This document shows, piece by piece, positions 54,601-62,099 of a stretch of 64,000 nucleotides of DNA. The translations under genes and the position numbers were made by a program. The notes below the pieces were generated by a model. That model saw only the letters and a list, made by a program, of their open reading frames with translations. It was not told where the DNA came from and ran no database searches. How positions within the stretch are numbered: position 1 is the stretch's first letter; every line of letters begins with the position of its first letter. The DNA is from Candidatus Bathyarchaeota archaeon (GTDB taxonomy: Archaea; Thermoproteota; Bathyarchaeia; Bathyarchaeales; Bathycorpusculaceae), in contig JAOZHX010000022.1 in NCBI GenBank assembly GCA_026014665.1, positions 1 through 64,000 on the forward strand, in the 5' to 3' direction.

Positions 54601-55433
54601 TTGTCTCTATTGCAAGCGGTAAAGGCGGAACTGGAAAAACATCAGTTGCCGTAAACATGGCTCTTTCATTGGGAAACGTTAAACTTTTAGATTGTGATGT
54701 GGAAGAACCCAATGCTCATCTACTCTTGCATCCTGAAATGCAAAAAACTGAACCAGTCTACGCTTCGATTCCAAAGATAGACAGAGAACTTTGTAACGCT
54801 TGCGGGGAATGCACCAGATTCTGCCAGTACAACGCAATATTTGTAGCCCCTCAGAATATCCTTGTTTTTCCAGAGCTTTGCCACAGCTGCGGCGGATGCG
54901 CGTTGGTTTGCCCCCAAAAGGCAATCACTTGGGAAAAGCATAAAATCGGCACATTAAACTTTGGCGTAACCGATGGTATAGCGCTTGTTTATGGGGAGCT
55001 TGAAGTAAGCAAGCCTCTAGCGGTTCCAGTCATAAAAGCCGTGAAGAACCAAATTAAATACGGCGAAAACGTGATTCTGGATTCTCCACCTGGGACTTCA
55101 TGCCCATTTTTGGAAACCGTAAGGGGTAGCGATTTCTGCCTTCTCATCACGGAGCCGACTCCTTTTGGCTTGCATGACTTAAAAATAGCTGTTGAGGTTT
55201 TACGAAAAGTTGCAGTTCCTTTCGGTGTCGTTGTTAATCGTGCAGGTATAGGTGACAATAAAATGTACGATTACTGCAGGGAGGAGAACGTTCGTATTAT
55301 GCTTGAAATTCCGTATGAAAGGAGAATAGCTGAACTCTACTCCAAAGGCGTACCGTTCAGTTTAGAGATGCCTGAATGGGAAGAGAAGTTTCAGAGGCTC
55401 TATAATGAAATTATAAGGTTGGTTGGAAAATGA
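54597..55433 (+). CDS. MinD/Mrp-type ATPase with embedded ferredoxin domain
   Basis: ASGKGGTGKTSVAVNMA; CNACGECTRFCQYNAI, CHSCGGCALVCPQKAI. Confidence 0.93.
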   Translation: MIVSIASGKGGTGKTSVAVNMALSLGNVKLLDCDVEEPNAHLLLHPEMQKTEPVYASIPKIDRELCNACGECTRFCQYNAIFVAPQNILVFPELCHSCGGCALVCPQKAITWEKHKIGTLNFGVTDGIALVYGELEVSKPLAVPVIKAVKNQIKYGENVILDSPPGTSCPFLETVRGSDFCLLITEPTPFGLHDLKIAVEVLRKVAVPFGVVVNRAGIGDNKMYDYCREENVRIMLEIPYERRIAELYSKGVPFSLEMPEWEEKFQRLYNEIIRLVGK

Positions 55434-56293
55434 AGCAATTGACAATTTTAAGCGGCAAAGGCGGTACAGGTAAAACCTCGATAACTGCCACTTTCGCGGT
55501 ACTGGCGAAAAATACTGTTGTTGCAGATTGTGACGTGGATGCGCCTGATCTTCACATGCTTTTGCATCCTGAAGTCATTAAAGAACAACAGTTTATTGGT
55601 TCAAAATTAGCGGTTATCGACTGCATGAAGTGTGTGAAGTGTGGTTTGTGCAGAGAAAACTGCAATTTTGGCGCTGTAACCAGCGATTTAGAAGTTGATG
55701 CTATTGCTTGTGAGGGGTGTGGTGTCTGTAAAGCTGTGTGTCCAGTTGGAGCCATATCTTTAGCTCCAAAAGTTTCTGGAAGAGCCTTCATTTCAAAGAC
55801 TAAATACGGCTTCATGTCTCACGCCCTGCTTAATCCAGGTGAATCGAATTCTGGAAAGCTCGTCACTTTGGTTCGACAAAACGCTAAAAACGTAGCGCAA
55901 GAAGAGCACTTTGACCAGATCATTATTGACGGTTCACCAGGGATAGGTTGCCCTGTAATAGCTTCCGTCACTGGAGTGGATGCAGCCTTGGTAGTAACAG
56001 AGCCGACGATATCGGGAATTCATGATCTTAAAAGAGTTCTCACGCTGCTAAATCACTTCAACGTGGCACCCTTTGTTTGCATAAACATGTACGATGTAAA
56101 CGTAAGCAACACCACAAAGATATTGAGCTTCTGCAAAGAAAATAGAACAGAAGTTGTAGGCATTATACCCTTTAGCCCTGATGTTACTCAGGCAATGGTT
56201 AACGGAAAAACCGTTGTAGAGTACAAGCCTGAAAGCGGCGTGGCGCAGGAGATAGCAAGCATGTGGAACAGGATGCAACAATTTTTTACATGA
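55430..56293 (+). CDS. MinD/Mrp-type ATPase with embedded ferredoxin domain
   Basis: LSGKGGTGKTSITATFA; CVKCGLCRENCNFGAV, CEGCGVCKAVCPVGAI. Confidence 0.93.
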   Translation: MKQLTILSGKGGTGKTSITATFAVLAKNTVVADCDVDAPDLHMLLHPEVIKEQQFIGSKLAVIDCMKCVKCGLCRENCNFGAVTSDLEVDAIACEGCGVCKAVCPVGAISLAPKVSGRAFISKTKYGFMSHALLNPGESNSGKLVTLVRQNAKNVAQEEHFDQIIIDGSPGIGCPVIASVTGVDAALVVTEPTISGIHDLKRVLTLLNHFNVAPFVCINMYDVNVSNTTKILSFCKENRTEVVGIIPFSPDVTQAMVNGKTVVEYKPESGVAQEIASMWNRMQQFFT

Positions 56294-57701: not shown

Positions 57702-58391
57702 TTACCCAGAGGCCTCCTTTAGTATTGGTACACTCTCTTGTGAAAAGATGGTGAATGATTGTTGTGGTAAAAATTCCAAATCTTTCTCGAGCTGATAGCC
57801 AGCTTCTTGCATTTCTTTTATTATCGTTTCTTTAGATAAAGAATGACCAAAAAGATTGTGAAGACTCAAACCACTTGTGCGCCTATATTCGATTATGGCA
57901 ACCCTTCCACCGGTTTCCAATGCATTCTTTAATCGCTTGAAATATTCTGGTCTATTTGCGAGATGGTGACAAACATTACGCATGAAGACTAAATCCACAC
58001 TTTTTTCAGGCAGATTTGGGTTGTCTTTTTTCGTGAGGATTGTTTCGACATTAAGAAGCTCCTTTTCTTTTGCTGCATTTTGAATGAATGACAAAAAATC
58101 AGGGTTTGTGTCTACAGCAAAAACATGCCCTTTTACCCCCACAGTTTCAGCAAAGCGTAAGGTGAAATAACCCCCGCCGGATCCGATGTCCGCGATTGCT
58201 TGACCTGTCTTCAATTCTAAAGCGTGCAGTATTTCGTCTGGTTCGTTAATCGGGTCAGAAGCCTTTTTGTTAAAAAGCTCTGCTTTAAGGTTTCTCTTCC
58301 TTTTGCTATTCAAAACCCCTGAGTTTTGAACGTTATCTTTGAGCAAACTGAAAAAAGAAGGAAAAATAGGCGTATTTCGCTGCGGTTTCAT
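57702..58391 (-). CDS. Class I SAM-dependent methyltransferase
   Basis: ALELKTGQAIADIGSGGGYFTLRFAETVG; DLVFMRNVCHHL. Confidence 0.9.
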   Translation of the reverse strand: MKPQRNTPIFPSFFSLLKDNVQNSGVLNSKRKRNLKAELFNKKASDPINEPDEILHALELKTGQAIADIGSGGGYFTLRFAETVGVKGHVFAVDTNPDFLSFIQNAAKEKELLNVETILTKKDNPNLPEKSVDLVFMRNVCHHLANRPEYFKRLKNALETGGRVAIIEYRRTSGLSLHNLFGHSLSKETIIKEMQEAGYQLEKDLEFLPQQSFTIFSQESVPILKEASG

Positions 58392-58609
58392 TGAATTGCC
58401 TTTTCCCCCGTCTTCGAGAGCCCGTATTTTTCCTGTGTTTCCTCGACTAGACCCGCGTTTTTAAGTTCTCTTAGACCGCTTCTCACCCGAAACAACGGTT
58501 GCCCCGTTTTGCTAGCAATCTCTTCAGGAGATAATGCGCCTTCCTTTAAAGATTTTAGAACTGTTATTCCGCTTCCTGTAGGCTTTCCATCTGGCGATAT
58601 GCAGGGCAT
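58388..58609 (-). CDS. Small winged-helix protein
   Basis: GITVLKSLKEGALSPEEIASKTGQPLFRVRSGLRELKNAGLVEET. Confidence 0.75.
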   Translation of the reverse strand: MPCISPDGKPTGSGITVLKSLKEGALSPEEIASKTGQPLFRVRSGLRELKNAGLVEETQEKYGLSKTGEKAIQ

Positions 58610-59392: not shown

Positions 59393-59728
59393 CTATTTTT
59401 CACCCTTTTGAGCATCTTTGCTTGGAGCCGCTGTCACCACGTAGATTGGTCTCCCTTCGCTAAGCGCCTGCGCCGTCTTGCGTCGTGCACTTTGAACCAG
59501 TCTCCATATGGTTCCTCTCGAAATGTTCATTTTCTGCCCTGCCTTTTCTTGGGACAAACCCTCGAGGTCCACCAGTCTAAACGCTTCCACTTCTGCAAAC
59601 TCTACAAACACTGGTTCAAGATGCCCTGGTTGATTAGGTGTAAAGGTTGTAACTTGCGGGATAGCTCCTAAGGTAACGGGTTTTGGGAATCTTCCTCTTC
59701 TACCATACCTGTGTCTTTCTCGCCACAT
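59393..59728 (-). CDS. DUF134 family putative HTH regulator
   Basis: AFRLVDLEGLSQEKAGQKMNISRGTIWRLVQSARRKTAQALSEGRPI. Confidence 0.9.
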   Translation of the reverse strand: MWRERHRYGRRGRFPKPVTLGAIPQVTTFTPNQPGHLEPVFVEFAEVEAFRLVDLEGLSQEKAGQKMNISRGTIWRLVQSARRKTAQALSEGRPIYVVTAAPSKDAQKGEK

Positions 59729-59763: not shown

Positions 59764-59922
59764 TTAGTAGGTTAGTAGTTTATCTGTATCTTCCAAGACC
59801 CATTCTAGGGCTTGTTTGGTTGCTTTCATAGCGATTTTTTCCCATTCCCTGAAGGGTCCTTCAGTTAATGCCGTTTTTTCAAGTTCTTTTAGGTTGTTTC
59901 TGATTTCTTGCTCAGACCTCAT
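59764..59922 (-). CDS. Small hypothetical protein (52 aa, not in supplied track)
   Basis: MRSEQEIRNNLKELEKTALTEGPFREWEKIAMKATKQALEWVLEDTDKLLTY; aggtga upstream; own translation. Confidence 0.65.
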   Translation of the reverse strand: MRSEQEIRNNLKELEKTALTEGPFREWEKIAMKATKQALEWVLEDTDKLLTY

Positions 59923-59970
59923 TTATTTCACCTGAGTGAACTTGCTTACAGGGTATTATGTGTTACAGAA

Positions 59971-60031
59971 CTTTTATATATTTCTGTGCATAATCACATA
60001 AATTGAGAATTGTGTGCATAAACACACAATT
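59971..60031. promoter_or_regulatory. Bidirectional promoter/operator between DUF134 unit and DUF5320 unit
   Basis: cttttatata TATA-like; TGTGcataatCACA (59985-59998); AATTGTGTG-cataaa-CACACAATT (60008-60031) perfect 9-bp IR. Confidence 0.7.
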
Positions 60032-60055
60032 TAACCAAGAGGTGAAAAAACAAAA

Positions 60056-60430
60056 ATGGAATACCGAAAAAGAGCCTACTCCCACCAGTGGCCTGGCAGG
60101 GGACCATTCAATCACTTACCACCATGGCAAAGACCCGGACGTATGTACGGCGGAAGAGGCTTTGGCAGAGGTTGGGGGTTTTACCCTCAAGCATGCGCAA
60201 GATTCCCCTGGCTTCCAAGAGGGTGGTGGGCAGACCCAAAGTACACCTATCCCATAATGCCATCTACGCAAGATGAAATTGCAGCGCTAGAAGAAAGCAA
60301 AAAAGCCCTAAGCGAAGATAAACTCAGCATAGAACAAGAAATCATCGACGTAGAAACACAGCTAAAAGAGCTAAAATCCAAACTTGAGGCCGAGAAAAAG
60401 CAGCAACCTTCAGAACAGCAACAAAACTAA
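60056..60430 (+). CDS. DUF5320-like protein
   Basis: Aromatic/Gly/Pro-rich N-term (GPGRMYGGRGFGRGWGFYP-like) then coiled coil DEIAALEESKKALSEDKLSIEQEI. Confidence 0.8.
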   Translation: MEYRKRAYSHQWPGRGPFNHLPPWQRPGRMYGGRGFGRGWGFYPQACARFPWLPRGWWADPKYTYPIMPSTQDEIAALEESKKALSEDKLSIEQEIIDVETQLKELKSKLEAEKKQQPSEQQQN

Positions 60431-60845: not shown

Positions 60846-62099
60846 TTGGAAGATAAGAGGTCATCACTCAAGAAAGGCGAAGATGCAGCAAAACTCTCTA
60901 CAGTCATCCTTCTTTCAGTCGGTATCTTAAAGGGTCTTGTTTCCTTTGCAAGCGGCAGCGTCGCGCTCCTCGCAGGTACAATCGATTCATTTTCAGATGT
61001 TTTTTCCTCCGTCGCCGTTTGGGTAGGGCTTAGAATCGCTAAGAAAAAACCCACCGAGAGATTTCCTTACGGCTACTATAAGGCAGAAACGTTTGCGTTG
61101 CTAGCCGTATCATTGATCATTGTCGCCTCCAGCATCTTGATTATGAAGGAGTCTTTTGAGAAGGTTTTTGAGGTTTATGTTATCTCTTTTTCTGATATTG
61201 CTCTTGTAGTGGCTGCTGTATCAGCGGGTGTCTATTATTTGCTTGCTAAATATAAGGCACGTGTGGGGCGCCAAATTGGTTCACAGGCGTTAATCAGTGA
61301 AGGTTTGCATTCTATGGTTGATGTGTATACTTCTGTGTTGGTTTTCATCGGGGTGTTCTTGGGTTCAATTGGTTTCCCGATTGGTGAGGCTTTGATCGGT
61401 TTCATTATCGGCGCCTACGTGTTGGCAAGAGGTTTACTGTATGGAAAGGATGCAGCACTGGTTTTGATGGACGTTTCACCGAATCCGCAAATGGCCAAAC
61501 AAATGAAAACTATAGCTGAAAGCGTACATGGAGTTAGGGGGACCCACGACATCAGGCTGCGGAAATCCGGTCCGGTGTTCTTCGGTGAAATGCATTTAGA
61601 ACTGCAGGAGGGGCTCTCCATTGAGAGGGCACATGCAATATCCGACGAAGTTGAAAAGAGAATTAAGGAGCGCTTCAAAGACATAGAGTTAGTTACCGTT
61701 CATGTTGGGCTCGGGCACAAGAAAAAGACTCGCATCGCTATTCCAATAGTGGAAGACAAAGGTTTGCAATCACTGTCCAGTCTCCATTTTGGAAGCGCTC
61801 CCTATTTTGCCTTTATAGACGTTGAAGAAGGGAAAACGGTTGGCTTCTACGTTAAGGAGAATGAAGGGGCAAAGCTGTCACATAAGAAAGGGATACAAGC
61901 TGCCAATTTGCTAGTTGAAGAAAATGTTGATGTTATCTTGGTTACAGGTGTTGGAGAGGGACCTTTTCATATATTAGGTGATAATTTGCTACGTATTTAT
62001 CGGCTTCCCCTGTCCACAGAAATTCAAGAAGCTGTTCGACTTTTTAATCAAAACCTGCTAAAGCTACTGACTGAGCCGACTGAAAAGCAGGAAGAATAA
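60846..62099 (+). CDS. Cation diffusion facilitator transporter fused to NifX-like domain
   Basis: CDF TM core (LLAGTIDSFSDVFSSVAVWVGL; SEGLHSMVDVYTSVLVFIG) then RIAIPIVEDKGLQSLSSLHFGSAPYFAFIDVEEGK. Confidence 0.9.
   Translation: MEDKRSSLKKGEDAAKLSTVILLSVGILKGLVSFASGSVALLAGTIDSFSDVFSSVAVWVGLRIAKKKPTERFPYGYYKAETFALLAVSLIIVASSILIMKESFEKVFEVYVISFSDIALVVAAVSAGVYYLLAKYKARVGRQIGSQALISEGLHSMVDVYTSVLVFIGVFLGSIGFPIGEALIGFIIGAYVLARGLLYGKDAALVLMDVSPNPQMAKQMKTIAESVHGVRGTHDIRLRKSGPVFFGEMHLELQEGLSIERAHAISDEVEKRIKERFKDIELVTVHVGLGHKKKTRIAIPIVEDKGLQSLSSLHFGSAPYFAFIDVEEGKTVGFYVKENEGAKLSHKKGIQAANLLVEENVDVILVTGVGEGPFHILGDNLLRIYRLPLSTEIQEAVRLFNQNLLKLLTEPTEKQEE

Follow-up and report, generated by a model that had tools for sequence, protein, structure and literature searches.

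Layout of the divergent locus and its two dyads

The window, a 64-kb stretch of DNA analysed as a whole, comes from a bathyarchaeal genome of 2.37 Mb assembled in 36 contigs. Near its right end, a gap of 133 nt separates a leftward unit, made up of a 52-aa ORF and a gene for a DUF134 protein, from a rightward unit encoding a DUF5320-like protein, a ferritin-like protein and a CDF transporter with a NifX-type domain (Table 1). The DUF134 protein is a member of its family by profile (PF02001, 73.8 bits against a curated cut-off of 27), and the 52-aa ORF had no family match in searches of Pfam and NCBIfam. Among 60 relatives searched, a full-length orthologue of the CDF-NifX (PF02579) fusion was found only in G012, which is also the closest relative at the locus.

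Table 1. Genes, promoter elements and candidate operators between positions 59393 and 62099 of the window
Feature	Position	Strand	Basis
DUF134 (PF02001) HTH protein, 111 aa, recognition helix SRGTIWRL; proposed operator binder	59393-59728	-	Pfam E 1.7e-20, AlphaFold HTH, motif tracking across genomes
52-aa ORF, heads leftward unit	59764-59922	-	ORF; RBS AGGTGA; conserved in G012, G035 and G300
Shine-Dalgarno AGGTGA of 52-aa ORF	59928-59933	-	sequence
BRE-like AGAACT, rightward promoter	59967-59972	+	sequence; purine/AAC stretch precedes TATA in homologous loci
TATA box TTTATATA, reads both ways	59973-59980	both	sequence; operator 1 follows after 4 nt in most homologous loci
Candidate operator 1, TGTGCATAATCACA, between TATA and predicted start; outer half overlaps leftward BRE	59985-59998	+	sequence, conservation
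Candidate operator 2, TGTGCATAAACACA, just downstream of predicted start	60013-60026	+	sequence, conservation
Shine-Dalgarno AGAGGTGA of DUF5320	60038-60045	+	sequence, conserved
DUF5320-like protein, 124 aa, heads rightward unit	60056-60430	+	Pfam E 7.5e-5, slightly below curated cut-off; orthologues behind same operators
Ferritin-like protein, rubrerythrin/EncFtn type, 93 aa	60489-60770	+	family match
CDF cation efflux transporter fused to C-terminal NifX-type domain	60846-62099	+	Pfam PF01545, PF16916, PF02579; FieF-like

Between the TATA box and the DUF5320 start codon, TGTGCATAANCACA is present as two direct copies whose starts lie 28 nt apart, and both copies form TGTG-N6-CACA dyads. The second sits within a longer repeat with perfect 9-nt arms (60008-60016 and 60023-60031). 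The TATA box is flanked by ACAGAA (59965-59970) and TTCTGT (59982-59987). Re-reading the sequence confirmed the initial annotation's description of a TATA-like element followed by two dyads with 6-nt spacers. The presence of two such dyads in 64 kb is not notable in itself, since they arose in 30 of 100 shuffles and in 105 of 400 Markov simulations. Two dyads no more than 50 nt apart arose in none of 400 Markov simulations of the window. The whole genome contains 13 TGTG-N6-CACA dyads, amongst which this is the sole close pair, and TGTGCATAANCACA occurs without mismatch at these two positions only. An ATPase gene elsewhere in the window (55430-56293) has no operator nearby; the twin dyads would instead serve the DUF5320-ferritin-CDF/NifX unit.

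In archaeal promoters the usual distance from the centre of the TATA box to the transcription start is about 26 nt, which predicts a rightward start near position 60003 and a leftward start near 59950. A start at about 60003 would put operator 1 at roughly -18 to -5 and operator 2 at roughly +11 to +24, both classical positions for a repressor.

Conservation at homologous loci

Both dyads are kept in G012, where the sequence from CAGAACT through the TATA box to the dyads is nearly identical to that of the window and the region beside the 52-aa ORF has diverged, and the two dyads stand 4 nt closer together than in the window. Many intergenic regions between DUF134 and DUF5320 also hold the pair. 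In a set of 22 distinct homologous loci its spacing ranges from 23 to 29 nt and is mostly 24 or 25, which makes the 28 of the window unusual. This variability argues against a rigid dimer of dimers. The distance from the TATA box to operator 1 is nearly fixed, and a TATA-like element lies near the dyads at 38 of 80 DUF134 loci that carry the motif, compared with 3.6% of random stretches.

Two further elements of the initial annotation were present in the window and proved to be poorly conserved. The first is the pair ACAGAA/TTCTGT, whose left member is replaced in relatives by CAGAAC, GCGGAAC, GGGGAAC or GCGCAAC. Because it varies so freely, the left element is best seen as part of the promoter, at the position of the BRE, and not as an arm of a conserved repeat, and we rejected the pair as a third operator. 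The second is the perfect long inverted repeat at operator 2, whose arm length is not maintained: the arm is 4 nt long in 16 of the 22 homologous loci and reaches 9-10 nt in two. This second point bears on whether operator 2 is a DNA site or might instead work as RNA, folding in the DUF5320 leader into a hairpin with a stem of 9-10 bp and a CAUAAA loop. The leader in the window folds at -13.1 kcal/mol (z -4.6), but outside this genome the long stem is almost absent, the leader of the sister genome G012 reaches only -6.1 (z -1.6), and operator 1, which has the same sequence, lies upstream of the predicted start. We therefore rejected the hairpin as a conserved feature and regard this reading as very improbable.

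The arrangement differs in genomes of family f17 (L276-L278): two dyads spaced by 29 nt flank the TATA box, and farther upstream there is a third dyad, which is TGTGC-like.

Association of the dyads with DUF134 genes

The initial annotation had proposed a search for TGTG-N6-CACA near other DUF134 genes. We pooled DUF134 genes from relatives, named genomes and the phylum, reduced them to 159 distinct domains, and ranked the palindromes upstream of them using every 4-nt arm with gaps of 0-12 and no preset motif. TGTG-N6-CACA was the top-ranked palindrome, present at 80 loci, and the second-ranked, GTGC-N4 (27 loci), is the same motif. Shuffled controls gave a mean of 0.6 and the reversed motif gave 0, a result that favours the proposal. 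The motif is also strongly positional, occurring within 300 nt upstream of DUF134 at the 80 loci, inside the ORF at 5 and downstream at 5.

A blind scan for the dyad pair in 257 whole genomes of the class returned matches in 24 and none with the control; because the pair pattern was derived from these relatives the match count is not unbiased, but co-location with DUF134 was not built into it. In 23 of the 24 genomes the pair adjoins a DUF134 gene, the 24th has DUF134 elsewhere in its genome, and all 24 pair loci carry a relative of DUF5320 or NifX. The motif also accompanies DUF134 in the absence of an adjacent divergent partner, and with or without DUF5320. In G039, the DUF134 gene and a DUF5320-NifX-Mrp operon, in which NifX and MinD/Mrp-type ATPase genes lie behind the dyads, are 1.6 kb apart with two other genes between them, and each promoter has the motif; the site is therefore independent of a shared divergent promoter. 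The exact 14-mer TGTGATATATCACA occurs in 8 of 397 genomes of the phylum. In two of these, G039 and G060, the match is at a DUF134 locus; the remaining six have no DUF134 within the retrieved stretch and were taken as background.

In the 24th genome, G477, whose assembly is 8% contaminated, the dyads accompany a DUF5320-NifX operon and DUF134 is on a different contig (L281, L268), with no dyad at the unlinked DUF134 gene; regulation in trans and a mixed assembly are both possible. At L081 (G021:C394) stop codons break the DUF134 reading frame, and two TGTG-N6-CACA dyads persist upstream.

The sequence of the half-site changes with the DUF134 clade. In most DUF134 proteins the recognition helix reads SRGT(V/I)WRL and one or both halves of the site are TGTGC; in one clade the helix is SRNTVWRL and the sites are TGTGATATATCACA-like, with TGTGA halves. 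Archaeoglobales MAGs also encode a DUF134 of the SRGT or SRNT type. With one mismatch allowed, SRGT proteins are found with C-type sites at 71 loci and an A-type site at 1, and SRNT proteins with A-type sites at 23 loci and C-type sites at 0. On the tree, however, the switch from one helix to the other is a single event and provides one independent pair, so the covariation fits, but does not prove, a reading of the fifth base by residue 72 (window numbering), and we did not accept it as proof of a specificity residue.

The resemblance of TGTGATATATCACA to the CRP/FNR consensus, TGTGA-N6-TCACA, raises the question of whether the dyads belong to a different regulator and DUF134 is a mere neighbour. 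Candidates would be a CRP/FNR-type protein, a 73-aa winged HTH (wHTH) protein encoded nearby (58388-58609), or the 52-aa protein. The genome has no cNMP-binding domain, however (no match to PF00027, with the control positive in 10 of 14 genomes), which led us to reject a CRP/FNR binder. Genes for the wHTH and the 52-aa protein were each present at only 2 of 20 loci of DUF134 relatives, most of which have dyads; because most dyad-bearing DUF134 loci lack them, we rejected both as binders. As the motif sits at DUF134 whether or not DUF5320 is present, and changes with the DUF134 clade, we consider another regulator improbable, and take DUF134 as the likely binder on the strength of this co-occurrence and the clade-wise change of the half-site.

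Other parts of the family look different. In the SRGTLWR subfamily a dyad was found at just 2 of 30 loci. More broadly, 37 of the 159 DUF134 loci (groups GL and GA; for example L190, L195 and L207) have SRGTLWR or an alanine before the helix, and nearly all of them lack TGTG-N6-CACA; no other clear common palindrome was found upstream of the GL and GA genes. Bacterial DUF134 genes, on plasmid records and with helices ARTTV or SRTTV, have a different but related upstream dyad (L284:3730-3975, L282:3600-3890 and L283:3700-4010): Peptoclostridium has TTGACATATGCCA together with a copy in inverted orientation, Pusillibacter has TTGACATATGCC, and Treponema has two copies of TGACAAATGTCAG. The Peptoclostridium and Pusillibacter dyads have the core CATATG in common with the archaeal TGTGCATATGCACA. 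In Pusillibacter (L282:3878-4651) and Treponema (L283:3998-4714), DUF134 is fused to a C-terminal NifX-like domain, and these fusions suggest that NifX may be a sensing partner.

Proposed regulation and comparison with known systems

At this locus a putative regulator gene lies beside conserved palindromic sites on a promoter. We propose that DUF134, as a small and presumably dimeric HTH repressor, binds both TGTG-N6-CACA dyads. One dimer on operator 1, in the interval between the TATA box and the start, and another on operator 2, past the start, would block RNA polymerase at the promoter of the DUF5320-ferritin-CDF/NifX unit. We assign a probability of roughly 0.8 to the view that DUF134 binds the dyads and thereby represses the rightward unit; repression is read from the position of the sites between the TATA box and the start codon. 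The same TATA box, read leftward, would serve the 52-aa ORF and DUF134 itself. Because operator 1 overlaps the BRE side of this leftward promoter, we propose that the leftward unit is autorepressed, and are somewhat less sure of this. The signal would most likely be the state of a metal or of an Fe-S or molybdenum cofactor, sensed directly or through NifX-type partners. This last is guesswork based on the genes present: ferritin, CDF and NifX here, and Mrp ATPases, an MrpORP operon and DUF134-NifX fusions elsewhere.

Alternatively, DUF134 might bind these sites and act as an activator of one unit; it could, for example, activate leftward transcription from operator 1 and still repress the rightward unit. 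Archaeal activators that recruit TBP or TFB can sit just upstream of the TATA/BRE, and operator 1 occupies such a position relative to the leftward promoter. However, operator 1 overlaps the leftward BRE itself, and in G039, G046 and G060 (L078, L076 and L080) the site is found a short way upstream of DUF134, either on its likely promoter or past it, as would be expected for autorepression. Activation thus appears unlikely, although less so than either a different binder or a hairpin, and we retain repression by DUF134 as the preferred reading.

Among the papers listed for DUF134 in the literature searched, several of which concern longer DUF numbers such as DUF1345 or DUF1349, no target site appeared in a title or opening abstract, and searches outside subscription journals for UPF0251, COG1342, DUF5320 and the motif string likewise gave none. 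The pair described here is a new candidate operator-regulator pair, though one of an ordinary kind, in a family with no known site in the literature searched, and the twin dyads are very probably the first recognisable switch for the DUF134 family. DUF134 is widespread in archaea and bacteria. A conserved candidate operator lets a gel shift test the family at once, offers a sequence route to its regulon, and links it to the handling of iron, Fe-S clusters and molybdenum in archaea that are mostly not yet culturable. A wider reading, to which we give somewhat less than even odds, is that in both archaea and bacteria DUF134 serves specifically to repress NifX/Mrp-type carrier systems for Fe-S or Mo. 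It would use one conserved dyad plan (core CAT-ATG), in which SR(G/N)T in the recognition helix would determine whether the half-site is TGTGC or TGTGA at its fifth base, and the sensor would be the NifX domain, which some bacteria have fused to DUF134.

The protein shares with its family (UPF0251, PF02001, COG1342) the N-terminal RxGRxPKP region and an HTH that resembles region 4 of sigma-70, as indicated by Sigma70_r4 matches, the AlphaFold model (pLDDT above 90 across the HTH and 81.9 overall) and Foldseek; what differs is that a target site is assigned here, by comparison. Among solved structures, the HTH comes closest to sigma region 4 and to operator-bound DeoR (DNA-binding domain of the DeoR/SorC family, PDB 7bhy, 8r7y). 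The superposition with DeoR has an rmsd of 0.6-0.7 over 40 residues; as the match spans no more than about 45 residues, no Foldseek hit of DUF134 attains an E value of 0.001. A sequence match with DeoR (E 2.6e-5) aligns SRPTVSRLL with SRGTVWRLV, placing SRGT at the position of SRPT in DeoR. The DeoR repressor binds as paired dimers to a palindrome at the promoter beside its own gene (PMC11229326), which is a fair analogy for the twin sites. DUF134 differs from the SorC/DeoR family, however, in that its 111 aa comprise an HTH and tails, with no C-terminal sugar-phosphate domain, and the sites differ as well: the DeoR operator is TTGAACA...TTCAA, as opposed to TGTG-N6-CACA at what is here an archaeal promoter. 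CRP/FNR operators are identical to the dyads in outer half-site and spacing, but the dyads track DUF134. In gene content the loci can be compared with the ORP/MrpORP Fe-S system, since genes for NifX and Mrp-type ATPases occur at many DUF134 loci and a bacterial NifX-ATPase-ATPase-MrpORP operon has DUF134 as its first gene. The Desulfovibrio orp operons are described as sigma54-dependent and controlled by a cognate regulator (PMC6345978 and reference 19 therein), whereas the archaeal locus pairs a TATA promoter with DUF134.
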